DNA of 42,901 nt. Source: Euryarchaeota archaeon ADurb.BinA087. Lineage in GTDB: Archaea; Halobacteriota; Methanomicrobia; Methanomicrobiales; Methanospirillaceae. A program made the translations under genes and the position numbers. This document shows positions 3,856-41,700 of the stretch, in pieces. How positions within the stretch are numbered: the first letter of the stretch is position 1; the number at the start of each line of letters is the position of its first letter. The DNA lies in the NCBI GenBank assembly GCA_002068435.1, contig MVZQ01000002.1, forward strand, positions 1 through 42,901, written 5' to 3'. A model generated the notes under the pieces. It was not told the origin of the DNA. It ran no database searches and worked only from the letters and a program-made list of their open reading frames with translations.

Positions 3856-4288
3856 GGTACATGGTCTTTTCAATTGTTGCCGGATAACGAACTGTCGGGA
3901 ACTAATTGAACCTACTCACTTTTTAGGAGGATTGGTGTAACGAGATTTTCCCACGAGAAGTAGAGGAAAAAAATTCCATTCATACCGCGCCGGGAGAATT
4001 GAACTGTTTATCAGTTGGTGTTTACTAAAACCATTTATTAATTTATTATTTATCGTTTAACTCATTTTTTATCATGAAAGTAAAAATAGGATTCATTTCT
4101 TCTCTGGATAGTGAAAAAAAAGTGTAATTGGTCCATAAAAAGAGGCAGGCCATTATTTTTTAAATAATTATAAACTTACTATTTTTTAAAATTCTCTGAA
4201 GTAAATAATAAATCTTTTAACAGCTCCTGTTGACCATTCCATTGTTTTTGTTGTACATTTGGAAATTTCATCCAAACGAGGTAGAACC
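3856..4288. other. AT-rich intergenic region before the giant surface gene
   Basis: No convincing gene is present. A good ribosome binding sequence (TTAGGAGGATTGGTG, about 3924-3938) is followed almost at once by a stop codon, so it leads nowhere. The segment from about 4020 to 4215 is very AT-rich and contains TATA-like runs (for example TTTAAATAATTATAAAC near 4159), which probably form the promoter of the 7.5-kb gene. Confidence 0.5.
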
Positions 4289-7200: not shown

Positions 7201-10200
7201 GCTGGGAGCGCTGGATGTAGCCGCCACCACAGCCGGGTTTACCTACGGTGTGACGGACAAGCAGTGGGCGGGATACGGTGTCCTGCTGCTGGACAACATC
7301 GATACCTATCTCTATCAGAAGACACCCCGGAAGGCCTGGTATGCGTATGTCAATGACGTCTTCAAGGATGGGTATAACAATCCTGCCGGCGGACTGAACC
7401 TCATTCCGCTGAATGACGGTGACCGGGTGGAATTCTACTTTGTCAATGGCACTGTTGACGATCCTTCCAACCTTGCCGCGGTCAAGGCAAATGCCTCAGC
7501 CGCGGTCATGACAATTGCTTCGACAGGGGTAATCCCTACTGACTGGAACCTCATCCTCGATGGTGCAAAGGTCGAGACGGTGACAAAAGCTTACTTCGAA
7601 TCTGGTCTTGCCTGCCCGAGCTCCGGTCACCAGGTATTCTGGACCGATGGCGAGGGAAACGAGTGGGGCGGTGTCCCACTCTGGTTGCTGGTCGGCATGG
7701 TAGATGATGATCCGGACGTAGGCCCGGACCATTACAACTTCAACGACGCCCTTGCCGCAGAGGGTTACTCGGTGAAGGTGACCGCGGGAGACGGGTATTC
7801 CATCAATTTCGAGAGCACCGATATCGCCCGCAACAATGACTACATCGTGGCAAATACCCTGAACGGGGAGCCTCTGCCACTGCTCCGTCCCAACAGCACC
7901 AAGCCCTGCTTCCCGCTCCAGATGATCGGCCCCGCGGTTACCTCCGGGAAACTGATAGGGAACATCAACTCGATCGAGCTCGTTGGACTTCCCGAGCCGC
8001 CTGAGGGATGGACGCTCAGTATGGAAGGTGATGTGGTGGATATCATCACGCAGCAATACTTCGAAGAGGGCATTGCCTGTCACCACAACACCACTTATAC
8101 CGATGGCAGCGGGAATGTATGGAGTGGCGTCCCTCTCTGGGAACTTTTGGGGGCTGTCGATGACACCGAGACCGCTTCCCACTGGACCTTCAATGATACC
8201 CGCGCTTCCACAGGTTACACCATTCGCGTGATCGCCGTTGACGGATTCAATCGGACCTTTGCGAGCGGGGATGTCGCGAGGAGCAGTAACTATATCGTGG
8301 CGAACAAGAAGAACGGCGAATCACTGAACGAAACTGAAGCTCCGCTCCGCCTGGTGGGCGCGAATGCCACCGGTGGGAAGAGCGTGAGCAAAATCTCAGC
8401 TATCCGGCTCGAAGGCCTGCCTGCATACCCCCCCGGTAACTGGAGCCTGCTGCTCGATGGTGCGATCAGTGATATCATCCCCCAGCCTGAGTTTGAGGAC
8501 TGGGCCGCCTGCCATCCGGCGGCATATACCGATGGGGACGGGAATGTCTATGAGGGTATACCCCTCTGGCGTCTCATGGGGTGGGTCGATGACAGGATCC
8601 CCCATGGATCGGATGGATTTAACAATGCTCTCGCCATTGCCGGATACAAGGTGATCGTTACTGCCGGGGATGGATACAGCAAGGAGTTCACGAGTCAGGA
8701 GATAGGAACGACGAACGGCTTTATCATCGCGAACAAGATGAACGGGCTGCCGCTTCCTGCCGATGGAGAGCACCCACCGTATCCATTACGCCTCGTCGGT
8801 GCAGGTCTCCCCTCCGTCCATTATAGCGTTGGCAACGTGGTCAAGATTGAGCTGACCGACTTCCAGGAACCCACCGAGATCCCGAAAATTACCATCATCA
8901 AGTATGCATCCGATGAGGTCACGATCATCAACCAGACCACGGTCGACTATGTCTGGATGGAGGCACACCTCCCGGTCATAGGCGATGGTGTGACGCACTA
9001 TCAATACCAGGGCCTCACCCTCGACCCGGACGATCTCTGGGACCCCACCGAGACCAAGGGGATGACTCCGCCCAAGATCGATAACGCGATCAAGGGAACA
9101 AAAGTGCAGGATCTCTGCAACCTGGTGGGCGGGATGGAGCCGGGCACCGAGATCACGTTTGTTGCTACCGACAATTGGGAGACCACGCTTCCCTACGACT
9201 GCATCTACCCCAATCCGCATGTTTATTCCCATCTTGGCGATACGATAATTGCCTGGTACGCTGACGGACAGTATGTCCCCAATTACACTGATGGGCAGCG
9301 GCTCTTCTTTACCCCTGAAGATCATGTAGCTGGGCAATGGAACATGCACGAAGCCCTTCCTGAGGAATACTGGCATTACAATTATCAAGATGGGGTCAAC
9401 TACCCGTCAGTTGCCGGTCTCTCGGCCAAGTGGATCACGACTATCAAGATCTACTCTTCCCCGGCAACTGACTGGACGCTTGTCCTTGACGGAGAGGAAA
9501 TCGGCGGGCTGAAACAGAATATCTCGCGTACCTACTTTGAATCTGCACTCACGTGCAGTTTCGGTGCAAACCACGAAGCAGAATATACTGATAGTCAGGG
9601 CAGAACCTGGGCAGGAATGCCTCTGTGGTTCCTTGCCGGTTTTGTTGATGACCAGGATCAGCACTCGGCAAATGCCTTCAACGAAACCCTGGCAGCAGCC
9701 GGGTATGATGTGATAGTGACTGCAGGTGATGGTACCTTCACTACCATTCCAAGCGACCAGATAATCCGGAACAACAACTACCTTGTTGCAAATACCCTGA
9801 ACGGGACAAGGATTCCTGAAGAGGACCCGAGCTGGCCGCTTCGCCTGGTTGGCCAGAACGTCACGGGTGCAATGAGTGTAAAGGGGATTGCATCGATTGA
9901 ATTACTCCCCTCCGGGATCGGGCCAACAGCCCCGACGGCAAACTTCACCGCTGATGTGACCTCTGGGGATGCCCCACTCACGGTGAACTTCACTGACTCC
10001 TCGACTGGTGACGGCATCACCGCGTGGGCATGGGACTTCGAGAACGACGGCACGGTTGACTCGACCGAGCAGAATCCGAGCCACGTCTACGACACGGCCG
10101 GCACCTTTACCGTGAACCTCACGGTGACGAATGCGGGTGGCAGTGACAGCGAGGTGAAAACGGATTATATCACCGTAATGACCCCCTGGTTAACAACGGT

Positions 10201-12065: not shown

Positions 12066-13142
12066 TTACCGCTCAACCACATGGATCGCGCTCGCCTTGA
12101 AAGCCAGCTGGGTCTCCTTCCCGAGTCCAAGGTCGAGTTCTTCGAATGAACGCTGGGTGATCACTGCGGTCAGTGTTATGCCGGCATCGACCTTCAGTCT
12201 CGCATTCGGCCCCATTGGGAGGACCTTTGTGATCGTTCCGGTGAATTCGTTCCGGGCACTGCTCTTCACCCCATCCCTGACATGGAACGTGATATCTTCA
12301 GGGCGCATGTAGAGCACCACCGGTGTCCCGGGAGGAAACGCGGTTGTTGCGATGATGGAAGTGCCATCAACATCAATTGAAGCGAGCCCGCCCTCATTTT
12401 TGGCGATGACCCCCTCAAAGATATTCTCCACCCCGACCATGTTCGCCACCGCCCGGTTCATCGGGTGGTAGAAGATCTCCTTTGAGGTCCCGATCTGGCC
12501 GATCCTGCCATCGATGATCACCGCAATCCGGTCTGCAAGCCTCTGCCCCTGCACCATGTCATGGGTCGAGAGGACGACGGTGATCCCGAACCGTTCCTTG
12601 AGTGAGAAGATGAGGTTCTCAATCTTCTCGGTGGAGACGGGGTCAAGGTTCGCGGTGGGTTCATCCAGGAGCAGGATATCCGGTTTCGTGGAGATAGCAC
12701 GTGCAATAGCAACTCTCTGCATCTCCCCTCCGGAGAGTGTCCCTGCTTTCCGATCTTCGTAGCCCTTGAGCCCTACCAGCTCGAGCGCTTCCGGCACCCT
12801 GGCCTTTATCTCATCGTGACTGGTGCCCCTGAATAAAAGCCCTATAGCGACATTGTCAAAAACGGTTCCCCGGAGGGGTGACGGTTTCTGGAATACCATG
12901 CTCATCTTCCGGCGGAGGGGGATACGGTCCCGGTCTTTCAGGGAGGAGACATTGGTACCCTCAATTGCTATCGTTCCGCTGGTAGGTCGTTCCAGCATAT
13001 CGATCAGGCGGAGGATCGTGGTCTTCCCGGAGCCACTTGGCCCGATAAAGGTGAAGATCTCGCCCTTCTGTATGGTAAATGAATTATCCTTCAATACTTC
13101 TTTTTCGCCGAAATTCATCACCACGTGTTCGAATTCGATCAT
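12066..13142 (-). CDS. tupC: Tungstate/molybdate ABC transporter ATPase with TOBE domain
   Basis: The start at 13142 (MIEFEHVVMNFG) follows GGTGAG, giving 358 residues; the longer frame to 13163 overlaps the permease gene. An ABC ATPase domain is present: Walker A GPSGSGKTT, Q-loop MVFQKPSPLRG, signature LSGGEMQRVAIARA, Walker B ILLLDEPTANLDP, H-loop STHDM. Residues from about 235 to the end form a TOBE-type oxyanion-sensing domain (VENIFEG, YMRPEDITFH, QRSFEELDLG). TupC/WtpC/ModC are close relatives; TupC is chosen because the upstream partner is TupB-like. It energises oxyanion import from the cytoplasmic face. Stop and start of the two genes are four bases apart, so they are one operon. 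No substrate-binding gene is adjacent. Confidence 0.88.
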   Translation of the reverse strand: MIEFEHVVMNFGEKEVLKDNSFTIQKGEIFTFIGPSGSGKTTILRLIDMLERPTSGTIAIEGTNVSSLKDRDRIPLRRKMSMVFQKPSPLRGTVFDNVAIGLLFRGTSHDEIKARVPEALELVGLKGYEDRKAGTLSGGEMQRVAIARAISTKPDILLLDEPTANLDPVSTEKIENLIFSLKERFGITVVLSTHDMVQGQRLADRIAVIIDGRIGQIGTSKEIFYHPMNRAVANMVGVENIFEGVIAKNEGGLASIDVDGTSIIATTAFPPGTPVVLYMRPEDITFHVRDGVKSSARNEFTGTITKVLPMGPNARLKVDAGITLTAVITQRSFEELDLGLGKETQLAFKASAIHVVER

Positions 13143-13146
13143 GATC

Positions 13147-13833
13147 TCACCGCTCCTGGACAAGGAAGAGTATGCCGGTCACAACCGTGGCAATTGCAAG
13201 CAGGATCAGCCCCAGCGCAATGGAGAGGGAGAGGTTCCCCATCGATGTCTCAAGGGCGATGGCGGTGGTGAGAACCCGGGTGTATCCCCTGATATTACCC
13301 CCGATCATCATCGCAGCCCCTACCTCGGAGATCGCCCGGCCGAATCCCAGAATCACTCCGCCAAGAATGGCAAACCGCGCTTCCTTGACGATGGTGATCA
13401 CGGTCTGGGTCTCGGAGGCGCCGAGGGATATCACAGTATCCTGTTTGGTCCGGCTCACCCCTGAAAGGGCGATCAGGGTCATGCCGATCATCAATGGAAT
13501 AATCAGAACGATCTGGCCAATGATCATACCCGTCGGGGTGAACATCAGCCTGAGAAACCCGAACGGGCCGGAACGGGAGAGGAGCAGGAAAACCAGGAGG
13601 CCGGCAAGCACGGTCGGAAGTGCATAGAGCGCCTGGATGATGGTGACAAGCCCCCTCTTTCCGCCAAATTCTTTGAAGTGGATGAATCCCCCGATGGGGA
13701 TAGCAATCGCCGAACCGATAAGGGTTGCCGAGAGCGAAATAAGGAGAGACCGTGCCGTGATCTCAAGAACTTCCTCATCGAGAGATACAATCAGTTGAAC
13801 CGCCTGGATGATTCCTTCAATAACTTCATTCAT
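13147..13833 (-). CDS. tupB: Tungstate ABC transporter permease
   Basis: This 228-residue inner-membrane permease has an N-terminal amphipathic stretch and about five or six hydrophobic helices. The binding-protein-dependent transport motif appears as SLGASETQTVITIVKEARFA...GFGRAISEVGAAMMIGGN, with E-V-G-A-A-M-M-x-G-G-N typical of TupB. The start ATG 13833 has GAGGAG about ten bases upstream. It is co-transcribed with tupC directly downstream. In the usual tupABC order tupA would precede it; here the upstream side is a ~200-bp gap and an unrelated small gene on the same strand. The orphan binding protein at 34948-36879 is the obvious candidate partner (inference). Confidence 0.9.
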   Translation of the reverse strand: MNEVIEGIIQAVQLIVSLDEEVLEITARSLLISLSATLIGSAIAIPIGGFIHFKEFGGKRGLVTIIQALYALPTVLAGLLVFLLLSRSGPFGFLRLMFTPTGMIIGQIVLIIPLMIGMTLIALSGVSRTKQDTVISLGASETQTVITIVKEARFAILGGVILGFGRAISEVGAAMMIGGNIRGYTRVLTTAIALETSMGNLSLSIALGLILLAIATVVTGILFLVQER

Positions 13834-16860: not shown

Positions 16861-17667
16861 ATGAAGTTTTCATGGATCATTCCCGTAACCGTAGTTTTCC
16901 TTGCTGCAATCCTCCTTACGGGCTGTACCGGAAACCAGGCGGAACCAGGAAAAACCGAACTCACGGTCTTTGCTGCCGCATCTCTCACCGGTGCATTGAC
17001 CGACATGGCAGAGACCTATGAGACCAGTCATCCCGGTATCCACGTTGTCCTCAATTTTGATGGTTCGCAAGCGTTGAGAACACAGATTGAACAGGGCGCC
17101 TATGCTGATGTGTTCCTCTCAGCCAATACGAAACACCTGTATGCACTCCGTGATCAGGGCCTCATGGAGAACAGCAGCATCGGTTTGTTTGCGAAGAACA
17201 AGCTGGCAGTCATCACCCCGGCATCCAACCCCGGGAATATTACGACCCTGGCTGATCTCACACGCCCTGGCACAAGACTTGTCATCGGTACAAAAGATGT
17301 CCCGGTCGGGGATTATGCCCGCCAGATCCTGAAAAAGATGGGGAACGACTCCACGTATGGCCCCTCCTATAATGCATCGGTCCTTGCCAATGTCATATCA
17401 GAAGAGACAACGGTGACCGGGGTTGTCACCAAAGTCCAGCTCGGTGAAGCAGATGCGGGTATCGTGTATGAATCGGACATTACCCCGGAAAACCGTGACA
17501 GGTTCCTGGTGATTTCCATCCCCGATCAGTACAATGTTATCGCTGAGTACCCGGCAGGGATTGTGGGATCATCGGCACACAAGGACGAGGCAGCAGGGTT
17601 CCTTGCCTACCTGAAAGGTGAACAGGGCAGGGCAATCCTGGCGAAATACGGATTTGCGTTACCCTGA
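16861..17667 (+). CDS. modA: Molybdate ABC transporter substrate-binding protein
   Basis: The 268-residue lipoprotein has an N-terminal hydrophobic segment and lipobox (AAILLTGC, Cys21). The mature part opens with LTVFAAASLTGALTDMAETY, the classic ModA signature in which A-A-S-L contributes to oxyanion binding. NFDGSQALRTQIEQGAYADV and FAKNKLAVITPASNPGN follow, and the protein ends with KYGFALP. It captures molybdate (or tungstate) outside the cell and delivers it to ModB. Length is normal. It begins the modABC operon, whose likely TATA and inverted repeat lie just upstream. Confidence 0.93.
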   Translation: MKFSWIIPVTVVFLAAILLTGCTGNQAEPGKTELTVFAAASLTGALTDMAETYETSHPGIHVVLNFDGSQALRTQIEQGAYADVFLSANTKHLYALRDQGLMENSSIGLFAKNKLAVITPASNPGNITTLADLTRPGTRLVIGTKDVPVGDYARQILKKMGNDSTYGPSYNASVLANVISEETTVTGVVTKVQLGEADAGIVYESDITPENRDRFLVISIPDQYNVIAEYPAGIVGSSAHKDEAAGFLAYLKGEQGRAILAKYGFALP

Positions 17668-17680
17668 GCTCTGGGATCGG

Positions 17681-18496
17681 ATGATGGGAAGAAGATATTT
17701 CCAGGGGAAGAATCCTCTTTTTCTCACCATTGGGGCAGGGGTACTGATCACCCTGCTCGTTATTTTTATCATCACTCCGATCCTTGGACTCTTTTTCCGA
17801 ATCTCATTCGAACAATTCCTGGCTTCGCTCTCCGACCCGGTAGTTTGGAATGCCCTTGTACTCAGCCTTGTTACTGCCAGTATTTCCACGCTTGTGATCA
17901 TCCTTGTTGGCACTCCGGTGGCATGGGTCAATGCCCGCCACCATTATCCCGGGCGCGAGATTGTGGATACCCTGATCGACCTCCCGCTCGTGCTTCCTCC
18001 AACCGTAGCGGGTCTCGCCCTTCTCCTGGCATTTGGCAGGATGGGCCTGATCGGGAGTTTCTTCTATGATTATGGTATCAGCATCGCCTTCACCACCCTT
18101 GCGGTAATCATTGCCCAGATATTTGTTTCCATCCCGTTCTACATCAGGCAGGCTCGGGCAAGTTTCGAGCAGCTTGATACAATGTACGAACATGCGGCTA
18201 AGAGTCTCGGATCCCCCTCCGTCCCAACCTTTTTCACCATCATCCTGCCGCTCGTGAAAGCAGGCCTGATCGGGGGGGCCATCATGTCCTTTGCACGGGC
18301 ACTTGGTGAATTTGGTGCGACTATCATGTTTGCCGGGAATTTCCAGGGCCGGACCCAGACGATGCCCCTCGCCATCTATACGGCCATGCAGGGTGATCTG
18401 ACTGCAGCTATCACGCTCTCGGTTATTCTCATCATCATCTCATTTCTCATTATCGCGTTCGTGAAATTCAAGCTCAGGGGGTATGGAGAACGTTAG
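17681..18496 (+). CDS. modB: Molybdate ABC transporter permease
   Basis: I start at ATG 17681, 13 bases after the modA stop, rather than the GTG at 17618 that would overlap modA by 50 bases. The 271-residue protein has a long first helix (ITLLVIFIITPILGLFFRIS) and about six membrane segments. The cytoplasmic EAA loop appears as EHAAKSLGSPSVPTFFTIIL followed by P-L-V-K-A-G-L-I-G-G, and RALGEFGATIMFAGNFQG is the usual ModB C-terminal signature. It forms the membrane channel for the oxyanion and pairs with the ATPase encoded immediately downstream. Confidence 0.92.
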   Translation: MMGRRYFQGKNPLFLTIGAGVLITLLVIFIITPILGLFFRISFEQFLASLSDPVVWNALVLSLVTASISTLVIILVGTPVAWVNARHHYPGREIVDTLIDLPLVLPPTVAGLALLLAFGRMGLIGSFFYDYGISIAFTTLAVIIAQIFVSIPFYIRQARASFEQLDTMYEHAAKSLGSPSVPTFFTIILPLVKAGLIGGAIMSFARALGEFGATIMFAGNFQGRTQTMPLAIYTAMQGDLTAAITLSVILIIISFLIIAFVKFKLRGYGER

Positions 18497-18498
18497 AG

Positions 18499-19224
18499 GT
18501 GGCGGTTCGGAGAGACCTGCGGGAGTATCTCCTTGAAGCAGAGTTCACCGTCAGGCAGGGCGAGATCATGGTACTGATAGGTGAGAACGGTTCCGGGAAA
18601 TCGAGCCTGCTCCATCTTATAGCCGGACTCCTTCCACCTGGTGCAGGGCATATAAGGATCGGAGAGCAGGTGCTCTACGACAGCATGAATGGGATCCATG
18701 TACCAGCCGAATACAGGGAGATCGGGCTGGTCTTCCAGAACCACGCCGTCTTCCCTCACCTGACCGTCTTTGAGAATGTTGCATTTGGCCTGCGGAGAAG
18801 AAAGGTACCAGAGCCCGAGATCCGTGAACGGGTTGGGGAGCTCCTCGCCAGGGTCTCTCTCGAAAACCTTTCAGGAGTCCGGGGGGACCAGCTCTCCGGG
18901 GGAGAGCGGCAAAGAACAGCCCTTGCACGCGCACTTGTCATCTCCCCAACACTGCTTCTCCTCGATGAGCCGGTCAGTGCCCTTGATGCAGCCGCCCAGG
19001 AGCGTATGCGGTCTTACCTCCATACGTATGTCAAAACATCCAATATTCCCTGTATTGTCGTGACTCATTCGTTCAGGGATGCTGCATCACTTGGTGACCA
19101 GATGGGGGTCATGGAACGAGGCCGGATTATCCAGAATGGAGATCTTGAAGAGATCAGGGGAAACGGAAGTCATTTCCTGCACCAATTTTTTTGTGGGTGC
19201 CGGAAGGATTCATGCCACTTGTAG
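18499..19224 (+). CDS. modC: Molybdate ABC transporter ATPase, no TOBE domain
   Basis: GTG 18499 lies two bases after the modB stop, with GGAG about ten bases upstream inside modB. The 241-residue ATPase has Walker A GENGSGKSS, Q-loop LVFQNHAVFPH, signature LSGGERQRTALARAL, Walker B LLLLDEPVSALD and H-loop VVTHS. ModC proteins are often about 350 residues because of a C-terminal Mop/TOBE domain; this one stops at the end of the ATPase (HQFFCGCRKDSCHL), so regulation by bound oxyanion on the ATPase is absent. The separate molbindin gene 2 kb upstream may handle oxyanion sensing or buffering (inference). The tail has three cysteines in eleven residues. Confidence 0.9.
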   Translation: MAVRRDLREYLLEAEFTVRQGEIMVLIGENGSGKSSLLHLIAGLLPPGAGHIRIGEQVLYDSMNGIHVPAEYREIGLVFQNHAVFPHLTVFENVAFGLRRRKVPEPEIRERVGELLARVSLENLSGVRGDQLSGGERQRTALARALVISPTLLLLDEPVSALDAAAQERMRSYLHTYVKTSNIPCIVVTHSFRDAASLGDQMGVMERGRIIQNGDLEEIRGNGSHFLHQFFCGCRKDSCHL

Positions 19225-29299: not shown

Positions 29300-29621
29300 T
29301 AGCTATCAATGGAACGGTAGCGCGAGGATCTCATCTGGGAAGCACTCGGATTCCACGGAGAATATTGTCTAACCTCTGCAGGTGCGGTGAGAAAAGACCA
29401 GTTTACCGGCAATCAGACCGTGGAATATCGCTCGAATTCCAGGATATGGTTATACGTCGATATTCCTTCCGTACATTCCGCAGCTGCCAGTGGCTTATTC
29501 TCCCTGAAGGTTAATACTAAATAATTTACATATCAAACAAGTAAACATTGAATACCTTTCAGTACGGATCCGGGACGATGTTCCATGCCTGTGAACCCAT
29601 ATCCCACCATGAAGGTTGGAG
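29300..29621. other. Unassigned region before moeA, possible gene remnant
   Basis: A plus-strand frame without a start codon is open from 29321 to TAA 29522-29524 and reads REDLIWEALGFHGEYCLTSA, later VEYRSNSRIWLYVDIPSVHS and GLFSLKVNTK. It looks protein-like but I do not recognise it; it follows the trmO pseudogene and may be another fragment. The part after 29510 is AT-rich and probably holds the moeA promoter. Confidence 0.35.
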
Positions 29622-31526
29622 ATGATGAAGAAGCGTTACCTTACCCTCCGGACCCTCGGTGATGCCCTCACCATAATGAAGACAACCTTCCCTCCATCAG
29701 GAGGATCCATGACCATCCCTATCGCCGAATCAGAAGGGAGGGTTGCATCAGAACCGGTCTATGCCCGGTATACTGTACCGGATTCTTCCATTGCCGAGAT
29801 GGATGGTATAGCGGTGAAGAGCAGTACCACCATAGGGGCAGGAGAGCAGCGTCCCCTCGCTCTCACCGACTTTGTCAGGGTAGATACGGGGAACATGATC
29901 CCTCCGGACTACGATGCAGTCATCATGATTGAGGATGTCAGCCTGGAGGAATCCTCCTGTATTGTCCGGAAAGCAGCCCGTCCGGGGCAGCATATCCGTC
30001 CTCCCGGCCAGGATATCACGAAAGGGGACCTGATCATCCCACGGGGTCACCAGATCCGATTCTCTGATATCAGTGCCCTTGCGACCTATGGATATGATAC
30101 CGTTACCGTAAGAATCGTGCGTGTCGGCATTCTCCCCACTGGCAATGAGCTGGTTCCGATTGGAACGGTACCAGGACCCGGCCAGGTGATCGAGACCAAC
30201 AGTCTCTTTGCTGCCTCATTCCTCTCTCGCCTCGGCGCTCTCTGCACAACCTATCCGCTTGTGCGTGATAATCCTCTTCAGATCGCACAGGCGCTGGAAA
30301 AAGCGGTTTTTGAAAACGATCTTGTACTCATATCCTCAGGGACCTCGGCGGGAAGACATGATTATTCGGCCGAGACCATCATGCAGCTGGGCAGGCTTCT
30401 CTTTCACGGAGTCGCAATATTGCCAGGAAAACCGGCAATGCTCGGAGCAATCAGGGGAAAGCCAGTAGTGGGGTTACCAGGATATCCTGTGGGCTCCCAG
30501 ACCGTGCTCCGCGAGATCGTTGCTCCGTTCCTCGTCTCGTGGGGGCTTGCCCCCCTCGACGAATGGATTATCAGGGGAAGGCTCGCACGGGACATGCCCT
30601 CCGATCTCGGGTTCGATGAGTATGTACCGGTATCGGCTGGAGCAGTCAACGGCACGTCCTGGATCTTTCCCCATCCCCGCGGTTCAGGTCTCCAGATGAA
30701 CCTGATCCGGGCGAACGGCTATCTCCATATCCCCCTTGCCAGTGAAGGATGGGAGGCTGGTGCGTGGGTCGACATCCATTGCACCTCTCTTCCTCACCAG
30801 ATTGAGCGCACTCTTCTTTGTATCGGGGCAAAAAATCCTGGCACCCGGCAGCTTGCCTATGCCCTTGCGAACCATTCCGTTATGCTGCAGACCTTTGATG
30901 ACCTCTCTTCGCGGGCACTCCTTGCACTCCGGAAAAATTCCTGTCATCTTGTTGCCCTTACTATTCCGGATCTGTATGGGGACATCGGGGCAGGGTATCC
31001 ATGGAACGATACTCATGCCGTCGTTATTCATCTTGGAAAGATACCGGTCGGTATCGTCTCGCATACCGGTGCAGGTATTGCCGACCTTGATCATCTTCGG
31101 GTGGTACATTCTCCCAAAGGTTCAACCGGAAGAATTCTGATTGATAGGCTGATTGCTGCAAAGGAAATTGGTCACGACCAGATGGTAATGAACAGCACTG
31201 CGGTAAAAACAGAGCATGCAGTGATATCGGCGGTGAAAACTGGTATTGCGGATGCAGGAATCAGCTCGGCAGTCCATGCAAAGGAAGCAGGACTGGCGTT
31301 TGTTCCCCTCACCCATGAATTCCATGTTCTGGTTGCCCGGAGGGAGTCACTTGAGGATGAGAGAATACAAGTCCTCCTGCAGATCATCCAGTCTCAGGAA
31401 TTCAGGAGTTCTCTTGAGGAGTGGTATACTACGTCTTGTACCGGAAAGGTCGAGGAATGTACCGCTGAATCCTTCCAGGGAAGTGCTTTATTACGGGAAG
31501 GGATTGTCGATCCTGGAACAGAATAA
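29622..31526 (+). CDS. moeA: Molybdopterin molybdenumtransferase MoeA fused to PBP-like domain
   Basis: I start at ATG 29622 (or 29625), beside GGAG; the TTG at 29616 is less likely. About 634 residues. MoeA part: IPIAESEGRVASEPVYARYT and PDSSIAEMDGIAV, VDTGNMIPPDYDAVIMIEDV, RPPGQDI, then the MoCF nucleotide-binding core with LPTGNEL, ETNSLFAASFLSRLGA, SSGTSAGRHDY and GIAILPGKPAML-type sequence, and the C-terminal barrel to about 395. MoeA inserts molybdate or tungstate into adenylated molybdopterin. The last ~230 residues (from TLLCIGAKNPGTRQLAYAL, through HSPKGSTGRILIDRLIAAKE, to LVARRESLEDERIQVLLQII) form a periplasmic-binding-like domain of the PF12727 type, often fused to MoeA in archaea and thought to bind oxyanion or regulate. 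It heads the moeA/mos/MOT1 stretch. Confidence 0.92.
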   Translation: MMKKRYLTLRTLGDALTIMKTTFPPSGGSMTIPIAESEGRVASEPVYARYTVPDSSIAEMDGIAVKSSTTIGAGEQRPLALTDFVRVDTGNMIPPDYDAVIMIEDVSLEESSCIVRKAARPGQHIRPPGQDITKGDLIIPRGHQIRFSDISALATYGYDTVTVRIVRVGILPTGNELVPIGTVPGPGQVIETNSLFAASFLSRLGALCTTYPLVRDNPLQIAQALEKAVFENDLVLISSGTSAGRHDYSAETIMQLGRLLFHGVAILPGKPAMLGAIRGKPVVGLPGYPVGSQTVLREIVAPFLVSWGLAPLDEWIIRGRLARDMPSDLGFDEYVPVSAGAVNGTSWIFPHPRGSGLQMNLIRANGYLHIPLASEGWEAGAWVDIHCTSLPHQIERTLLCIGAKNPGTRQLAYALANHSVMLQTFDDLSSRALLALRKNSCHLVALTIPDLYGDIGAGYPWNDTHAVVIHLGKIPVGIVSHTGAGIADLDHLRVVHSPKGSTGRILIDRLIAAKEIGHDQMVMNSTAVKTEHAVISAVKTGIADAGISSAVHAKEAGLAFVPLTHEFHVLVARRESLEDERIQVLLQIIQSQEFRSSLEEWYTTSCTGKVEECTAESFQGSALLREGIVDPGTE

Positions 31527-31986: not shown

Positions 31987-32811
31987 ATGGGATACTGCAT
32001 GAAACGGGACCGGTTCGAAGTCGCCAGTAAGCTCCAGGGAGAGTCATTGGTACGGAAGGGGTTGCTGAAAAGATACGAAGGCAGGAGCCTCCTCAGGATG
32101 ATGCCCGATCTGAATGTGGTAAAGATCGGGGGTCATGGGATCATCGATTATGGAAAGGACGTTTTAATACCCCTTCTGACCGAGATTGGAGAACTATCAC
32201 GGGAACACCAGATCCTTGTGGTGACTGGGGGCGGGGTCAGGGTGCGCCATATTCTTGATCTCGGACTTGACCTCGGGATGCCGACCGGGGTCCTTGCAGA
32301 GCTTGCCGGAAAGATCAGCGAGCAGAACGCGATCATGGTATCAATCCTGCTCTCCCCATATCACGGTACGCGGATCCATACGGCAGACCTCCTGGAACTG
32401 CCGATGCTGATGAACCTTGGCGTACTTCCCGTGATTCATGGCACCCCTCCCTACGGCCTGTATGAACAACCGGCTGCGATCGGTTCGATCCCCCCGCACC
32501 GGACCGATACCGGAGCGTTCCTTGCTGCCGAGGTTCTCGGGGCAAAGAACCTGATACTCGTAAAGAACGTTGACGGACTTTTTACCGCTAATCCTTTCAC
32601 GGATAAGGATGCGACCCGGATACCGGATATCACCGCAGGCGAACTCCTGGCCATGGAGATGGAGGATATGGTCCTCGAACCGAAAGTGGTCGAGCTGATG
32701 ATGAATGCCAAGCACATCCGGGAAGTGAAGATCGTCAATGGATTCGGGCCAGGAAATGTAAGGCGAGCTATTGCAGGTGAACGGATCGGTACGATAATCC
32801 GTGCTGAATGA
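31987..32811 (+). CDS. Molybdenum storage protein (MosA/MosB)-like amino acid kinase
   Basis: The 274-residue protein belongs to the amino-acid-kinase fold and matches the Mo-storage branch: LRMMPDLNVVKIGGHGIIDY, VVTGGGVRVRHILDLGLDLG, MPTGVLAELAGKISEQNAIM, PPHRTDTGAFLAAEVLGAKN, LILVKNVDGLFTANPFTDKD, and the ending EVKIVNGFGPGNVRRAIAGE then RIGTII. As I recall Azotobacter MosA/MosB, these motifs align almost throughout. Those proteins form an ATP-driven cage that stores about a hundred Mo or W atoms as polyoxometalates. Only one gene is present here, so the cage would be homomeric. A TATA-like GATATAAATC (about 31975-31984) places transcription near ATG 31999, an alternative leaderless start. 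Flanked by moeA and the MOT1 transporter. Confidence 0.85.
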   Translation: MGYCMKRDRFEVASKLQGESLVRKGLLKRYEGRSLLRMMPDLNVVKIGGHGIIDYGKDVLIPLLTEIGELSREHQILVVTGGGVRVRHILDLGLDLGMPTGVLAELAGKISEQNAIMVSILLSPYHGTRIHTADLLELPMLMNLGVLPVIHGTPPYGLYEQPAAIGSIPPHRTDTGAFLAAEVLGAKNLILVKNVDGLFTANPFTDKDATRIPDITAGELLAMEMEDMVLEPKVVELMMNAKHIREVKIVNGFGPGNVRRAIAGERIGTIIRAE

Positions 32812-32837: not shown

Positions 32838-33959
32838 ATGCCCAAGGATTCCAGACCCCCGCTCCGGTTTGGTATCGGTGAACTGGCTGGCAGCCTTGGC
32901 GATTTCGGGACCATCCTCCCTCTCTCCCTCGCCCTTGCCGCAACCGGTGCCCTTGGGATCGGTCCTGTTCTCCTTTTTCTTGGGATCTGGTTCATCGTAA
33001 CAGGGTATTATTACCGGTACCCCGTTCCGGTGGAGCCGATGAAGGCGATTGCCGTCATCGCAGTTGCTGCGGGGATGTCGGGAGGAGAGATCGCCGCTGC
33101 CGGGCTCATCCTTGGGGGAATCTTCCTCATCTTCGGATGTACCAATATTCTTGAAATAATTGAACGATACATTCCGCTCCCCGTGGTCCGTGGTATCCAG
33201 CTGGGACTGGCCCTCCTCCTCCTCAGGACCGCTGCAGGGTACATTCTTCCCGATCCCGGGTTTTTCCTGCTCGGTGCCCTCATCATCATAGCGGGATTTC
33301 TCGTAGCAACCCACTTCCGTGTCCCGGACCTCTCATCCATTGCCGTGATTGCCGTCGCGATTGTTGCCGGCATAATCATACAGGGCTTCCCCCCCATCAG
33401 TACCCTCTCCCTCACCCTCATTGCCGTCCCTTCCTGGTCTGAAATAATCGCTTCACTTGCCGACCTGGTTCTTCCCCAGGCTATCCTTACCATTACCAAT
33501 GCAATTCTCGCGACCTCGCTCCTCGCAAAGGACCTTTTTTCTGCGGATATCCGGCCAAAAAAGCTCTCCCTCACCATCGGGCTCATGAACCTCACCTCGA
33601 TTCCCTTTGGGGGGATGCCCATGTGCCACGGCGCCGGGGGGATGGCAGGACAGTACCGGTTCGGGGCAAGGACCGGGGGGGCGAACATCTATGCAGGAAT
33701 CATCCTTATCGGGGCTGCACTGCTCTTTGCAAGCACTGCATGGCTCGGACTGATCTCACCCGGGTTCTATGCTGCCCTCCTGATCTTTGTCGCGATAGAA
33801 CTGGCACGGCACGGGGTGAAGACCAGTTCCTACCTCGTAACCATCACCACGGCAGTCCTCTCGTTAGTCGCCTCAATGACCGTGGCCTTTATCGCAGGAA
33901 TGTGCCTTGCATATGGTATTCCTTATCTCATGAAACAGATCGGAGAAAAAAACAGGTGA
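32838..33959 (+). CDS. MOT1-type molybdate transporter
   Basis: The 373-residue protein is almost wholly hydrophobic, with about ten membrane segments, and carries the two MOT1 (putative sulfate/molybdate transporter) motifs: GELAGSLGDFGTILPLSLAL near the N-terminus with PVPVEPMKAIAVIAVAAGMS, and IPFGGMPMCHGAGGMAGQYR with FGARTGG in the second half. MOT1 proteins are high-affinity molybdate permeases known from plants, algae and some prokaryotes. The gene begins 26 bases after the mos-like stop and is probably co-transcribed with it, linking import directly to storage. It provides a non-ABC uptake route alongside ModABC and TupBC. Confidence 0.9.
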   Translation: MPKDSRPPLRFGIGELAGSLGDFGTILPLSLALAATGALGIGPVLLFLGIWFIVTGYYYRYPVPVEPMKAIAVIAVAAGMSGGEIAAAGLILGGIFLIFGCTNILEIIERYIPLPVVRGIQLGLALLLLRTAAGYILPDPGFFLLGALIIIAGFLVATHFRVPDLSSIAVIAVAIVAGIIIQGFPPISTLSLTLIAVPSWSEIIASLADLVLPQAILTITNAILATSLLAKDLFSADIRPKKLSLTIGLMNLTSIPFGGMPMCHGAGGMAGQYRFGARTGGANIYAGIILIGAALLFASTAWLGLISPGFYAALLIFVAIELARHGVKTSSYLVTITTAVLSLVASMTVAFIAGMCLAYGIPYLMKQIGEKNR

Positions 33960-34947: not shown

Positions 34948-36879
34948 CTAGGCCATCACCACGCCGCTCTCCTTTAATGCTGCCGGGACATTCCCATAAC
35001 CGAGTGGCGGACTGATGACTTCCTGGCCGTCAGCGGTGAGGATATCCTGGCCTGTCTGGCTGATCAGGATCTTGATGAATTCGAGTCCAAGGTCCGGGCT
35101 CCGAGCATTCTTTGGAACGGTAACAGCATAGATGATAGGTGTACCTGTCTCCGTTGCAGTAGTGGTTCCGCTGACACGTTTTACTTTGACTGTTGCGTAC
35201 GAATCCGCGTTCTCCTGGGCGGAGAGGTCCATTCCCACTGGGAGTTCGATATACGGCAGACCGTTCTGGATTGCTACGCTGCTGTATTCGATCGCATAGT
35301 CAGCCTTCCCCTCTTTTAAGATGGCAACCACATCAGGACCGGATTTTCCAATCACGAGCTTTCCATCAGGGGTGGGCTTGGTCACATCAATGGTGTACTT
35401 CCCATCAGAGAATGTCCTCGTCATCTTGCTGTGAGAAGCAAGGAGGCTCGAAAAGATCGTGTCAACGCCATAGACGCGCTCCGCAAGCTGTACCGACATG
35501 ACCGCACGGTATCCCGCAGGATCGGTGTTTGGATCGCTGATCACGTACTTGACATCCGGGGTGTTCAGGATCTCGTACCAATTGTCAGCAGTGATCTGAT
35601 CGTTGTACTTGCTCTGGTTGGTATACACCACGACCATGTGGTTCTTTGCAAACGTCACATAGTAATCGGCGTAGGTCGGGTACATCAGGGTCGGGATGAG
35701 GTAGGCATCGGCTGAAGCGAGCACATCTGCCTTCTTGCCCTGTTTTGTGATCTTCTCGATCATGGTGACACTGCCTCCCCCAAAGAGCTGGGCATCGACC
35801 AGCGGGAACTGGCTCTCATATGCCGTCTCAATCTTTGCGAAGGGTGCATTGAGGCTTCCGGCATTGAAGACCGTCATCGGTTCGATTGCGGTTGCTTCTC
35901 CGGTACAGACACAGTTGAACTTGGCGCAGTCACCGTTCATTGCAGAGAAGAGGTTCTTCCCGTACTTATCCTTGCCATAATTCTCAATATCGGCCTGGGT
36001 CTGTGGTGAGATCAGGAAGTTCACGAAGTTGTTCGCCATCTCGATCTTTTCTGTTGTCGTCTTGTCGTTGTATACCGTGATTACGGAATAGACGTTGAGC
36101 AGGATAGCGCCTTCACTCACAACAGGTTGCAAGTCGAGATCGCCCTGGTAGGCAAGATAGGTCCCTTCATCGGTCAGGGTGTAGGCTCCTTTCTCTGATG
36201 CGAGCTGGAGCGTCTCGCCCATCCCTCTGCCAGCCTCGATATACCAGTTGCCTGATTTCTGGACATCCTTGGTATAATTGTACTTTGCAGAGGCCCAGAC
36301 GGCCTTTTCAGCAGAATGAGTCCCCGAATTGTCACCACGCGAAACGAACATCACACCGGGGGTGTTTGCCTTCCCCTTGGTAAGGATGGTCGTGAATGCC
36401 TGCTCGGGGGTCATTCCCTTCACACCGGCGGGATCACTTTCAGGCCCGACAATGATAAAGTAGTTGTAGGCAAAGCAACGCCTGTTCAACCCGGCACCAT
36501 CCTCCATGTAGGTAACCTCCTGTGAGGGAGAGTGGACGGCCAGGATATCACAATCGCCTTTCTTTGCGACTTCGATGGCCTTCCCGGTACCCTGTGAGGT
36601 GATCAGGAGTTCGGCGTTATACTGCTCCTCAAACTTCGGTTTCAGGTAGTCAAGGAGCCCCGTATCGTAGAGACTCGTTGTGGTTGCAAGGAGCACTTTT
36701 GTTTTTGGTCCGACGGGAGTTGTCGGAACAGTGGTCATATTGCCAGTCTCACTGGGGGTAGGGGTCACGGTAGGAGTGCCACTGCCCGGCTCGGTTGTTG
36801 TGCAGCCTGCAAAGGTTGCAAAGCCAACAACCAAGAGAGTAAGGATTATGAAAATGCTGATCTGCTTCTTCAATGCCAT
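34948..36879 (-). CDS. Fused TupA-WtpA substrate-binding lipoprotein
   Basis: One uninterrupted 643-residue frame. A signal peptide with lipobox (ATFAGC, Cys28) and a Thr/Pro-rich linker lead into a TupA-like domain (about 58-325): VLLATTTSLYDTGLLDYLKP, ITSQGTGKAIEVAKKGDCDI, VSRGDNSGTHSAEKAVW. A second, WtpA-like domain (about 335-635) follows: TVFNAGSLNAPFAKIETAYE, KITKQGKKADVLASADAYLI, DNWYEILNTPDVKYVISDPN, DPAGYRAVMSVQLAERVYG and YAIEYSSVAIQNGLPYIELP, keeping the Asp and Glu that complete octahedral oxyanion coordination in known WtpA proteins. Both halves are tungstate/molybdate binders of different families. No permease adjoins; TupBC at 12066-13833 lacks a binding protein and could be the partner. 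The two halves may load one transporter or bind different oxyanions. Confidence 0.9.
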   Translation of the reverse strand: MALKKQISIFIILTLLVVGFATFAGCTTTEPGSGTPTVTPTPSETGNMTTVPTTPVGPKTKVLLATTTSLYDTGLLDYLKPKFEEQYNAELLITSQGTGKAIEVAKKGDCDILAVHSPSQEVTYMEDGAGLNRRCFAYNYFIIVGPESDPAGVKGMTPEQAFTTILTKGKANTPGVMFVSRGDNSGTHSAEKAVWASAKYNYTKDVQKSGNWYIEAGRGMGETLQLASEKGAYTLTDEGTYLAYQGDLDLQPVVSEGAILLNVYSVITVYNDKTTTEKIEMANNFVNFLISPQTQADIENYGKDKYGKNLFSAMNGDCAKFNCVCTGEATAIEPMTVFNAGSLNAPFAKIETAYESQFPLVDAQLFGGGSVTMIEKITKQGKKADVLASADAYLIPTLMYPTYADYYVTFAKNHMVVVYTNQSKYNDQITADNWYEILNTPDVKYVISDPNTDPAGYRAVMSVQLAERVYGVDTIFSSLLASHSKMTRTFSDGKYTIDVTKPTPDGKLVIGKSGPDVVAILKEGKADYAIEYSSVAIQNGLPYIELPVGMDLSAQENADSYATVKVKRVSGTTTATETGTPIIYAVTVPKNARSPDLGLEFIKILISQTGQDILTADGQEVISPPLGYGNVPAALKESGVVMA

Positions 36880-37906: not shown

Positions 37907-39205
37907 TCAGAACTCAACCACCATCACCGCTTCTTCTTCCTCCCGAAGTTCCCCTTTCAGGTGCCTGGCGTCGAACTGGTAGCTCTCCCAGGGATCATAC
38001 TCCTCATACAGTTCGCATTTGTCCAGCACATCGACCAGCTCTTTGAGGAATATCCGGGGAATGACATCGATCCGCCCCCCGAATTTCCCCGTAAGCCTGT
38101 TGATCATGGCCCTGATGAACCGGTGTGAGACCCTGGTTCGGTCAACCTCGCCATACGCCTCTGAATAGATGGTAATAACCTTTGAGGCCACCTGCTCGAG
38201 TTTCTTTGCATCGAACTTGGAGAGCGAGATCTGGGGCTGGCGGGGATTTCTGAATTCACCGCTCTCAGTAACACCGATCCGGTCAGCGAGAGGCGGGATC
38301 GAACGAATACCCCTCGGTCCTTCAAAAAAGGCCGGAGTACCGGTGAAGAAGAAGTAACAGTAGGGCATCTCGCCACGATCAAGGGAATCAATGATCAACC
38401 GGAGGGTGGTATATCCCTTCTCACGCTGATTCCTCGGGAGCGTCTGCGTCGTCTCAAGCTCGTCGATTGCGACCGCAAGCCCCGCATAACCGGCGTTCAC
38501 GATGATCCGGACGAGTGCACGGAGGAAGACGAGCGCAAACGTCTCATCGACATCACCCTTTATCCCTGCCTTGGCCTTGAAATCCCTGCCGATGTTCGGC
38601 TCTGCAGAGATCCAGCCGATAGCAGACTGCGCCGTCTGGAAATCGCCTGCATTGTTTGCCCGGTAGTAGGTCCGGAGAGCCGCAGCAAGGGACGAATTCA
38701 TCTCTGATATCCCGGCAAGAGCGGTTTCTATCTCCTTGAGTGTGGCAATCTCGAGACTGTCTTCCGGAAGGGGGTGGTCGCTCACTTTCAGGAGACGTTC
38801 CTCAATGGAGAAGAGCCATGTGTCGATTACTGCCTTCATGGCGTGCTCTTCTTCCCGTGTCCGGAGGGTCGCGCAGATCTGCTGGTACATCCCTTTCAGC
38901 TTATAGAGGGGGGATGCTGGGGAGATCACCACATGGGCAGTGACAAAGTTCTTCTCCCGGGCTATCTCAAGGGCTCTCGCGACAAGAAAGGTCTTGCCGC
39001 TCCCGTAATCACCGCGAATAAACTTCAGGTCTCCTCCGCCATCTGAGACATAATCGAGCTGGGAGGCGATAACCCCCTCCTCAACATCAATCCCGACCGC
39101 AATCCGTTCAAGGCCGCCAGCCGGCACCGTTCCACGCCGGAGTGCATTGATAATGTTGACACTCCCGGTCTTCCTCTTGTCCCCATGGTCAGCCAGTATA
39201 GGCAT
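37907..39205 (-). CDS. BREX-type P-loop ATPase (DUF2791, BrxD-like)
   Basis: ATG 39205 has GGGGTGAG five bases upstream and overlaps the stop of the TPR gene by 17 bases; 432 residues. N-terminal NIINALRRGTVPAGGLERIA and VGIDVEE precede Walker A (GDYGSGKTFLVARALE, 65-80); AVAIDELETTQTLPRNQREK is the Walker B region with its downstream Q-R segment; FFFTGTPAFFEGPRGI looks like sensor 1. This order is that of the DUF2791/BrxC-BrxD superfamily of BREX ATPases, AAA-like proteins used in phage defence and related conflict systems. No other BREX gene (methylase, phosphatase, BrxC, helicase) is present. Its partners here are the TPR and glycosyltransferase genes, so its job may be different. Confidence 0.85.
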   Translation of the reverse strand: MPILADHGDKRKTGSVNIINALRRGTVPAGGLERIAVGIDVEEGVIASQLDYVSDGGGDLKFIRGDYGSGKTFLVARALEIAREKNFVTAHVVISPASPLYKLKGMYQQICATLRTREEEHAMKAVIDTWLFSIEERLLKVSDHPLPEDSLEIATLKEIETALAGISEMNSSLAAALRTYYRANNAGDFQTAQSAIGWISAEPNIGRDFKAKAGIKGDVDETFALVFLRALVRIIVNAGYAGLAVAIDELETTQTLPRNQREKGYTTLRLIIDSLDRGEMPYCYFFFTGTPAFFEGPRGIRSIPPLADRIGVTESGEFRNPRQPQISLSKFDAKKLEQVASKVITIYSEAYGEVDRTRVSHRFIRAMINRLTGKFGGRIDVIPRIFLKELVDVLDKCELYEEYDPWESYQFDARHLKGELREEEEAVMVVEF

Positions 39206-41006
39206 ATATCTCACCCCCTTTTCCTGAACCCTTCTTTACAATTATGGGAAACCCGGATAAAGCACCTTTCTGCATAATCCGGTTCATGATTCCGACCACC
39301 CTCCGGGTGTTCAGGAGCTGACGGAGATCCATTTCGCTCGCTTCACGGTGGGTTCTGAGGAACTCGATGATCACCTTCTCCTGTTCATCGCATGAATCTA
39401 TGAAGTTCTGGAGTGCCTCATCCCTTTCATCTTTTACGGGATCTGCCCTTCTCGGGGTAAGGGCAGGGGTGTCGGAGAGCGTCTGCTCTTTGCAGGTTTT
39501 GATCAGCTCGAGAAAATCTTCCGGCCTTATATGAGAAGAACCGGATGGAACGATATCGAGGCCTCTCAGGCAGTACTCCTTGCAGCTCTGGTAATCCCTG
39601 CATTTCAACGCCTCACTCGCAGAGAGAAGGTATGCGACCGAAAGGTATTCGAATCCGTCCGAACCCAGGGTCGGAATATGTCCCTCAAGCACGCTGACGA
39701 GACGGTCAAGGATCCTCTGTTGCGAGAAAAACCTCCATTCCTCTTCGAGGATGAATCCGGCGAGCGATTCAAGATCCCTGGTTTTCCGCACATTGTTCAG
39801 AATGTAAAGGAGAACCTTCTCGCCCTCCCTCCGTTCAGCCTGCCTGGCAAGGTAACGGGCATACGCAATGCCGCCGGACAGGTAATCGCTCCTATATGCC
39901 CGGTAATAATATGACTGCGCCTCGGCATGATCGCCGATATCCTCATACAGCTTTGCAGACTCGATGAGGCAGACCACATGGGGGGTCGCTGATACCTGCA
40001 GAAGGAATCGGGCGACTGCATCCCTGACCGGGTAATACGTCAGGAGATATTCACGGTATCCGGCCAGAAGGTCAGACAGGAATCCTGGATCATCGATATC
40101 TGACAGTGTCTCCCTGATCAGGTACTCAAAACAACCGAGGGCTTTCTCTCGCTCCCCGGCCATCGCGTTCAGCCTGCAGAGGAGGAGCCGTATACGCGGG
40201 TGTGAACCTGATCGGTCATCATCGAGGAGATCCCTCACTACTTGGAGCGCATCAGCAGGCTTCCCTGCAGAGAGGAGCAGTTGAGCATAATCGTATCCGA
40301 TTCCCGTATCTCCCAGGGCTGAGAAGAATTCGCGATATTCCTGCTCCGCAGATCCGGGATAGTCCCGTGAAAGAGCCTGCAGGTACAGCCGGGCAGATTC
40401 AAGAGACCCAGTCTTCCGGTGTGCCCCCAGTGCTTCGCGGGCGGCTTCGGAAAAAATACCCGCACCCATGAGGGCAGCGATATGGTCCATGTCAGCATCG
40501 GTATGCCTGATGGAAGACTGGTATACCACAAGTGCTTCCCGTGCCTGGCCGGCAGAAGTGAGCGCCTGTATCAACAGGCGTTGGTCTTCTTCTTTTCCGG
40601 AGAGTTGTGCAATTTTTTTAAGGACCGGGATGGCACGCCGGTAGTCGCGCTGTGCCATGAGGCAGGCAGCATAGCTCCTGAGTGCCTCCAGGTTGCCGGG
40701 ATCGAGCGTGATAGCCCGGATGTATTCGGCAACCGCGGCGTCTTCATGTTTTCGTTCCAGTATCTTTCCAAGAAAACTGTGGAGGTAAGACGAATCAGGC
40801 ATCCCGTGGAGCAGGTCCCGCACCAGTACCTCTGCCTCGTCCATCCGGTCGAGATTGAACAGGTTTCTCGCTGCCAGAATGGGGATCTGGGTGTCGGTAC
40901 CCTGCTCCCCGGCAGCACGGCAAATCTCGAGGGAGTCGGGATATTTTCCCTCTTCAAAGAGCCTGAAGGCCTGCCTGACGGACTCCTCCCGATACTCCTT
41001 ATCCAT
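39189..41006 (-). CDS. TPR protein with C-terminal winged-helix-like domain
   Basis: ATG 41006 follows AGGGGG by eight bases and overlaps the glycosyltransferase stop by eight bases. Of 605 residues, about 1-490 are helical tetratricopeptide-type repeats (AFRLFEEGKYPDSLEICRAA, AAVAEYIRAITLDPGNLEAL, YRRAIPVLKKIAQLSGKEED, SAKLYEDIGDHAEAQSYYYR). After a charged linker (PRRADPVKDERDEALQNFID) the end is EQEKVIIEFLRTHREASEMD, LRQLLNTRRVVGIMNRIMQK and IVKKGSGKGGEIYAY, a pattern of helices and a beta wing like an archaeal winged helix. The protein likely docks partners by its repeats and may touch DNA or another protein by its tail. It links a glycosyltransferase and a BREX-type ATPase in one operon. 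Confidence 0.8.
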   Translation of the reverse strand: MDKEYREESVRQAFRLFEEGKYPDSLEICRAAGEQGTDTQIPILAARNLFNLDRMDEAEVLVRDLLHGMPDSSYLHSFLGKILERKHEDAAVAEYIRAITLDPGNLEALRSYAACLMAQRDYRRAIPVLKKIAQLSGKEEDQRLLIQALTSAGQAREALVVYQSSIRHTDADMDHIAALMGAGIFSEAAREALGAHRKTGSLESARLYLQALSRDYPGSAEQEYREFFSALGDTGIGYDYAQLLLSAGKPADALQVVRDLLDDDRSGSHPRIRLLLCRLNAMAGEREKALGCFEYLIRETLSDIDDPGFLSDLLAGYREYLLTYYPVRDAVARFLLQVSATPHVVCLIESAKLYEDIGDHAEAQSYYYRAYRSDYLSGGIAYARYLARQAERREGEKVLLYILNNVRKTRDLESLAGFILEEEWRFFSQQRILDRLVSVLEGHIPTLGSDGFEYLSVAYLLSASEALKCRDYQSCKEYCLRGLDIVPSGSSHIRPEDFLELIKTCKEQTLSDTPALTPRRADPVKDERDEALQNFIDSCDEQEKVIIEFLRTHREASEMDLRQLLNTRRVVGIMNRIMQKGALSGFPIIVKKGSGKGGEIYAYTG

Positions 41007-41700
41007 CTCCAATACCCCCTGAAAACCTGATGGAGACCAGGCTTTTGAGCATCCGGAAGGAATCCCTCCCCCTGACCCGGGATCCTCCCTTGTTCTGCCA
41101 GGTGATCGGATACTCTTTTATGATATACCCCTTCATCGAGAGGCGCCATAACAATTCCACATCGAATTCAAATCCGGTCGCTGCCATTTCCCCTATCACT
41201 GCATCGATGGCTGTTTTTTTAAATACTTTCGCCCCGCACTGTGTATCTGTCAGGGAGAGACCAAAGAGCAGCCGTATCAGCAGGTTGAATCCCCGGCTCT
41301 CCAATCTCCGGGCAATTCCCTGGCGCTCGGGAACAACGGACCCCGGGAGCCAGCGTGAACCCACAACACAGTCGGCATCCCCCAGTTCTTCAAAGAGGGA
41401 GACCATCTGTGCAACCGAAGTCGAGGCATCGGCATCCATGAAGCCCACATACGCCGTATCGGCGTTGATAAATCCCTCTTTCACTGCCCCTCCTTTCCCG
41501 AGTCGGTGGGGATATACCAGGCACCGAAGGTCTGTTTCCGGATGGGATCTGGCACATTTCCTGACAATTGCAGGGGTGGAATCGCTGCCATCGCAGATGA
41601 TAAGATAATGGCCTCCTTTGCCGGGTATCTGTGAGAGGAGGTTCCCTATCCGGTGCTCTTCATTATATGCCGGGATGATGATGCTGAAATCCGGTTTCAA
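40999..41700 (-). CDS. Family 2 glycosyltransferase, dolichyl-phosphate glucosyltransferase-like
   Basis: Start is TTG 41700: a stop codon (TGA) directly precedes it and FSIIIPAYNEE must be included, so no other start is possible. The 233-residue enzyme shows the GT-A fold of the ALG5/DPM1 type: IIPAYNEEHRIGNLLSQI, the HRLGKGGAVKEGFINADTAY segment, the metal-binding FMDADAST, and GLSLTDTQCGAKVFKKTAI. No membrane helix is visible. Such enzymes move a sugar from UDP- or GDP-sugar to a lipid phosphate carrier for protein glycosylation. It is the second gene of a tightly packed run; its last codons overlap the TPR gene, so translation is probably coupled. Confidence 0.88.
   Translation of the reverse strand: MKPDFSIIIPAYNEEHRIGNLLSQIPGKGGHYLIICDGSDSTPAIVRKCARSHPETDLRCLVYPHRLGKGGAVKEGFINADTAYVGFMDADASTSVAQMVSLFEELGDADCVVGSRWLPGSVVPERQGIARRLESRGFNLLIRLLFGLSLTDTQCGAKVFKKTAIDAVIGEMAATGFEFDVELLWRLSMKGYIIKEYPITWQNKGGSRVRGRDSFRMLKSLVSIRFSGGIGDG

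Follow-up and report, generated by a model that had tools for sequence, protein, structure and literature searches.

A lipoprotein that joins a TupA-like domain to a WtpA domain is a genuine, conserved variant of a known tungstate uptake system and not an error, and it most simply acts as the substrate-binding protein of the TupBC importer, occupying the place that TupA holds in tupABC. Its gene lies in the window, by which we mean the whole stretch of 42,901 nucleotides analyzed here; this is contig C2 in the assembly of Euryarchaeota archaeon ADurb.BinA087, which is 76% complete. Because a single assembly of this completeness is insufficient on its own to exclude an artefact, relatives were needed, and we looked for the fusion at the levels of family, order, class and phylum. 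The two domains and the importer have been described before, as has the principle of binding domains in tandem. Our literature search (subscription journals lay outside its coverage) found no described TupA-WtpA fusion and no description of the joining of these families, its conservation, its pairing with TupBC or the exchanged carboxylate reported below.

Results

Two families of binding protein in one reading frame

The original prediction placed a natural fusion of TupA-type and WtpA-type domains at 34948-36879. Those coordinates are correct, with the reading frame on the minus strand, and every motif it quoted (TTTSLYDTGLL, VFNAGS, KKADVLASAD, DPAGYRAVM and YAIEYSSVAIQ) is present in the frame, which is organized as follows.

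34948..36879, minus strand, stop included: TupA-WtpA fusion lipoprotein, 643 aa (ORF, profiles, PDB matches, 29 full-length fusions in the family)
36802..36879, minus strand: signal peptide and lipobox (FAGC) with predicted lipidated Cys26 (sequence; Cys aligned in all complete fusions)
36706..36801, minus strand: Thr/Pro-rich tether, residues 27-58 (sequence; length varies among relatives)
35947..36705, minus strand: TupA domain, residues 59-311 (Pfam, NCBIfam and PDB matches)
35884..35946, minus strand: inter-domain linker, residues 312-332 (alignment)
34951..35883, minus strand: WtpA domain, residues 333-643 (Pfam, NCBIfam and PDB matches)

Pfam assigns residues 59-292 to PBP_like_2 (3.9e-36) and residues 336-618 to SBP_bac_11 (1.6e-39). 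The sole TupA-specific match of the N-terminal half is to the NCBIfam model NF041772 (residues 60-311, 1e-51, 176 bits); because this score is under the equivalog cut-off of 400, we call the half a TupA-like domain and not an NCBIfam TupA equivalog. The C-terminal half matches the WtpA model TIGR03730 at residues 335-605 with 307 bits, above the curated cut-off of 243, and scores 336 bits with NF003196, narrowly missing the cut-off of 355. The sets of solved structures matching the two halves do not overlap: the TupA structures 5my5, 3lr1 and 3muq match residues 57-311, and the WtpA structures 3k6u, 2onk, 3cfz and 3cg3 match residues 332-636, with 3cg1 a further match of this second half. The Pfam, NCBIfam and PDB matches rule out that both halves belong to one family. 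A profile search of the whole protein sends one half to TupA-type and the other to WtpA-type profiles and, with the distinct structures matched by each half, bears out the predicted fusion. An AlphaFold2 model of the fusion, built from a 9-sequence alignment, was uninformative (mean pLDDT 53).

Conservation and selection

Counting genomes with both domains in one ORF, as had been proposed, gives full-length fusions in 29 of the 108 genomes of the family, distributed over eight genera, the window's own genome being one of the 29. Named relatives are Methanoregula, Methanolinea and other Methanoregulaceae; in a second family there are only pieces of the fusion, cut by contig ends (L022, L077). 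The junction had been guessed near 35890-35910, close to the actual linker at about 35884-35946, and it is open in all 29 full-length homologues. These intact fusions exclude a sequencing error, hidden stop or frameshift between the halves. Both halves are maintained by strong purifying selection, with dN/dS (Nei-Gojobori, 12 pairs) of 0.019-0.100 in the TupA half and 0.030-0.161 in the WtpA half. Distant fusions are about 60-78% identical to the window protein in the TupA half and about 43-70% in the WtpA half.

Association with TupBC

Two genes elsewhere in the window encode the proposed transporter partner.

13147..13833, minus strand: TupB permease, proposed partner (TupB NF041773 7e-45, under cut-off; WtpB only 5e-10)
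12066..13163, minus strand: TupC ATPase, proposed partner (orthologue behind fusion-tupB in L038-L041 and L044)

TupB is the best equivalog for this permease, and its WtpB match is weak. The window contig holds no other TupA; tupBC (12066-13833) lies on it 21 kb from the fusion, a distance that counts against the pairing. In most relatives, the fusion is adjacent to tupBC: in L038, L039, L040, L041 and L044 the fusion, tupB and tupC follow one another in the same direction (gap about 120-135 bp), L046-L050 have the fusion adjoining tupBC in divergent orientation, and L064-L069 provide further cases of both layouts. A near relative (G073) carries the fusion, TrmO, MOT1, a MoSto-like gene and tupBC all within 8 kb. 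The closed genome G011 has no TupA or WtpA match besides the fusion, TupB is encoded beside it, and a WtpB query gave 0 matches, so that neither WtpB nor ModB was found there; in the window genome the same query detects ModB at 3e-33. A WtpB relative is missing from 15 of the 29 fusion genomes, nine of which also lack ModB (all drafts, except G011 and G069). It is because of the adjacency to tupBC, the gene content of the closed genome and these absences that we consider the fusion to be the TupBC binding protein. Being encoded with tupB and tupC, it has the gene company of a TupA; the genomic partner of its WtpA half is TupBC instead of WtpBC. The window genome also has modABC (16861-19224) and, on contig C42 (L052), a separate wtpABC, so WtpBC in this organism does not depend on the WtpA half of the fusion.

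Ligand residues and an exchanged carboxylate

The tungstate site of Desulfovibrio alaskensis (DaG20) TupA is formed by TTTS, His59, Arg118, Thr124 and Asp170 (PMC5517513), and by alignment the window protein, like every complete fusion, keeps TTTS and the equivalents of the other four residues. WtpA contributes Asp160 and Glu218 to a distorted octahedral coordination (PMC4139814, PMC10221389); we located these two residues in AF_0094 from the alignment and their spacing. The corresponding positions in the window protein are as follows.

36673..36684, minus strand: TTTS tungstate motif, residues 66-69 (alignment; motif role from PMC5517513)
36319..36339, minus strand: R181 to T187, the DaG20 TupA Arg118 and Thr124 equivalents (alignment; PMC5517513)
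36169..36171, minus strand: D237, the DaG20 TupA Asp170 equivalent (alignment; PMC5517513)
35521..35523, minus strand: D453, the PfWtpA Asp160 equivalent, a carboxylate ligand kept in all fusions (alignment)
35338..35340, minus strand: G514, at the PfWtpA Glu218 position, ligand lost (alignment)
35287..35289, minus strand: E531, preceding the conserved Tyr, proposed to replace the lost carboxylate (WtpAs exchange this Glu with Glu218)

The Asp160 equivalent is retained in 32 of 32 fused WtpA halves. The window protein has Asp453 and, at position 218, Gly514, and so departs from the Asp160 and Glu218 pair of WtpA. We revised a reading of this change as simple loss of the Glu ligand because of a strict exchange among 39 standalone WtpAs: nine have Glu218 with Ile before the conserved Tyr, 30 have Ser or Ala at 218 with Glu before the Tyr, and none has both carboxylates or neither. 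The alternative positions are 17 residues apart (for example in the standalone WtpAs L117-L136, L059, L071 and L113). A carboxylate occupies one of the two in 27 of the 32 fused halves, as Glu before the Tyr in 21 and as Asp or Glu back at 218 in six, and is found at neither in five. On this sequence pattern, Glu531 probably stands in for the lost Glu218 and may reach the metal. The earlier statement that TupA and WtpA coordinate the oxyanion differently consequently needs qualification for this protein: the Asp ligand of WtpA is kept, Glu218 is lost and Glu531 is its likely substitute.

In the tree, each of the two sites changes four times, and three independent pairs of changes run in opposite directions and none in the same direction (p 0.25), a pattern that is suggestive of paired switches and too small in number for significance. 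In a comparison in which one probe was an ad hoc consensus-like peptide, the solved WtpAs AF, MA and MJ were of the full Glu218 type and PH showed only the Ile; the Glu-before-Tyr type was absent from the WtpA structures checked (PDB matches). The exchanged second carboxylate is thus a structural prediction in its own right.

Two genomes of one genus, G121 and G199, share an in-frame deletion of the central part of the WtpA half (lobe B) that leaves a single lobe.

L051:23-1480 and L096:35-547, plus strand: fused WtpA halves with lobe B loss (two genomes sharing the deletion)

Sister sequences of these fusions lack both candidate Glu ligands. Because the carboxylate is missing in five halves and the lobe is deleted in two genomes, some lineages have altered the WtpA half or can dispense with it.

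Origin of the fusion

The fused WtpA halves form a single clade (100/100), whose sister group consists of standalone WtpAs from within the order. In another family (L078, L079, L085), such a standalone wtpA lies directly behind tupA-tupA-tupB-tupC, with no wtpB after it in L078 and L079, and because a related standalone wtpA directly follows tupABC in these relatives, the joining of neighboring genes would be the simple origin for the fusion. The TupA halves of fusions interleave with standalone TupAs (six changes), and at the syntenic position a member of the same genus (L086) encodes a standalone TupA, as several near relatives likewise do, from which it follows that loss or exchange of the WtpA half happened more than once, in several separate events. 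The standalone wtpA genes at L078:4846-5883 and L079:4437-5525, which have no adjacent wtpBC, may encode orphan TupBC binders.

Discussion

The reading that we consider probable is a tandem substrate-binding protein whose membrane-proximal TupA domain and distal WtpA domain both serve TupBC. The N-terminal lipid anchor would set the TupA domain beside the membrane, where it would dock on TupB, and the WtpA domain would keep a second site for catching oxyanions close to that permease; it would either dock on TupBC directly or raise the local substrate concentration for the TupA domain. We infer that tungstate or molybdate is a ligand of both domains; the sequence of steps, improved affinity, use of molybdenum and any hand-off between the domains are likewise putative, as are the wider affinity range and the discrimination of Mo from W that the original prediction raised. 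Because some fusion genomes have no other ABC importer for these metals, our data suggest that the added WtpA domain may broaden what TupBC can collect. Against the tandem reading count the TupA score under the equivalog cut-off, the 21 kb between the fusion and tupBC in the window, the fused WtpA halves that lack a second carboxylate or a lobe, and the standalone TupA that several near relatives keep at this locus.

The fusion resembles known systems in part. It shares its proposed ligand residues and its TupBC partner with TupA of TupABC (Eubacterium acidaminophilum, Desulfovibrio alaskensis, Campylobacter jejuni), from which it differs by a C-terminal WtpA domain of about 310 aa and by being an archaeal lipoprotein. 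Its WtpA half matches WtpA/archaeal ModA (AF_0094, MA_0280, MJ1186, PF0080) over the whole length and keeps the Asp ligand, but has Gly for Glu218 and a Glu 17 residues later, and is fused and paired with TupBC instead of WtpBC. In GlnPQ, two different tandem substrate-binding domains serve one ABC importer (PMC8025302); for the fusion, genomics supports the two domains and the single importer, and ligand binding by both domains is putative. Unlike the fusion, a separate lipoprotein made of two oxyanion-binder families, GlnPQ has its domains linked to the transmembrane domain and binds amino acids. Another likeness is AdcA, a two-domain zinc lipoprotein whose accessory domain is ZinT-like. The main binder of AdcA suffices for uptake and the accessory domain recruits zinc (PMC7858048), whereas both domains of the fusion are periplasmic-binding-protein folds for oxyanions.

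A relay is a possibility that we hold only tentatively: the distal WtpA domain, with its relocated carboxylate, would catch the oxyanion and either hand it to the TupA domain or take turns with that domain on the single TupBC. If true, organisms without ModABC and WtpABC would cover both metals, or wider concentrations, with one pump. That the WtpA half is a scavenger handing the oxyanion to a TupA half that alone docks appears unlikely. In its favor, the TupA half lies next to the membrane and is the slower-evolving of the two in this family, a reversed WtpA-TupA protein in one other genome has a C-terminal anchor that again places TupA beside the membrane, and the accessory C-terminal domain of AdcA, which aids zinc recruitment, offers a precedent (PMC7858048). 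However, published WtpA affinities exceed those of TupA (PMC10221389), so that passing the oxyanion on to TupA would run uphill, and the reversed-order case may be an assembly artefact.

The original prediction also proposed that one lipoprotein feeds two permeases, the TupA half serving TupBC and the WtpA half WtpBC or ModBC, and WtpB is indeed present in 14 of the 29 fusion genomes, the window's included. This is very unlikely, as the fusion occupies the TupA slot, the other 15 genomes, among them the closed G011 with its TupB, lack WtpB, nine of them ModB too, and WtpBC of the window genome has its own WtpA. Least credible of all is a WtpA half that is a non-binding remnant serving as a spacer or interaction domain, for which the loss of Glu218, the five halves without either candidate carboxylate and the lobe B deletions speak, but against which stand the low dN/dS of this half, its invariant Asp ligand and the second carboxylate retained or relocated in most fusions.

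There is continuing debate on how cells discriminate between tungstate and molybdate, for which TupA and WtpA have been studied as alternatives. Because the fusion is conserved and carries both on one permease, it allows a direct test of how they divide the labor; where it alone gives these metals an ABC route into the cell, the genome offers a clean case for such a test.

Neighboring genes and a reversed-order protein

The surroundings of the fusion include the following genes.

29616-31526, plus strand: MoeA fused to a PBP_like domain (window annotation)
31987..32811, plus strand: molybdenum storage protein homologue, amino acid kinase fold (MoSto beta 1e-65)
32838..33959, plus strand: MOT1-type molybdate transporter, recurrent neighbor of the fusion (PF16983 5.5e-47)
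37907-41012, minus strand: BrxC/BrxD-type ATPase (1.7e-125) with an adjoining TPR protein, keeping its place next to the fusion in many relatives
4259-11746, plus strand: repeat-rich predicted surface protein, 2,495 aa (sequence)

This methanogen carries a MoSto homologue, and many relatives again have the gene next to the fusion, together with MOT1 and tupBC. MoeA-PBP, encoded in a Mo/W cluster that also holds two fdhAB sets, FdhD and modABC, represents an archaeal fusion proposed to insert tungsten (PMC11733289). There, too, a molybdate/tungstate-type PBP domain is joined to another Mo/W protein, but the product is a cytoplasmic cofactor enzyme and, unlike the fusion studied here, no transporter part. 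No other BREX genes were noticed near 37907-41012, and Rfam gave no RNA family in the window.

The reversed-order protein and a related one are encoded in G245, a genome of another class in the same phylum.

L101:4052-6238, minus strand: reversed-order WtpA-TupA protein, 728 aa, with C-terminal PGF-CTERM anchor
L112:4045-6159, minus strand: second copy of the WtpA domain, fused to a different periplasmic-binding domain

The WtpA part of the reversed protein is an exact 1,048-nt repeat of the second gene, 9 kb away. Because of this repeat the reversed case may be artefactual, and we keep it as a lead only and not as proof of convergence. Its gene lies directly upstream of tupBC. The L112 protein has the same C-terminal anchor sequence, and its gene is followed by those of a ModB-like permease and an ATPase.
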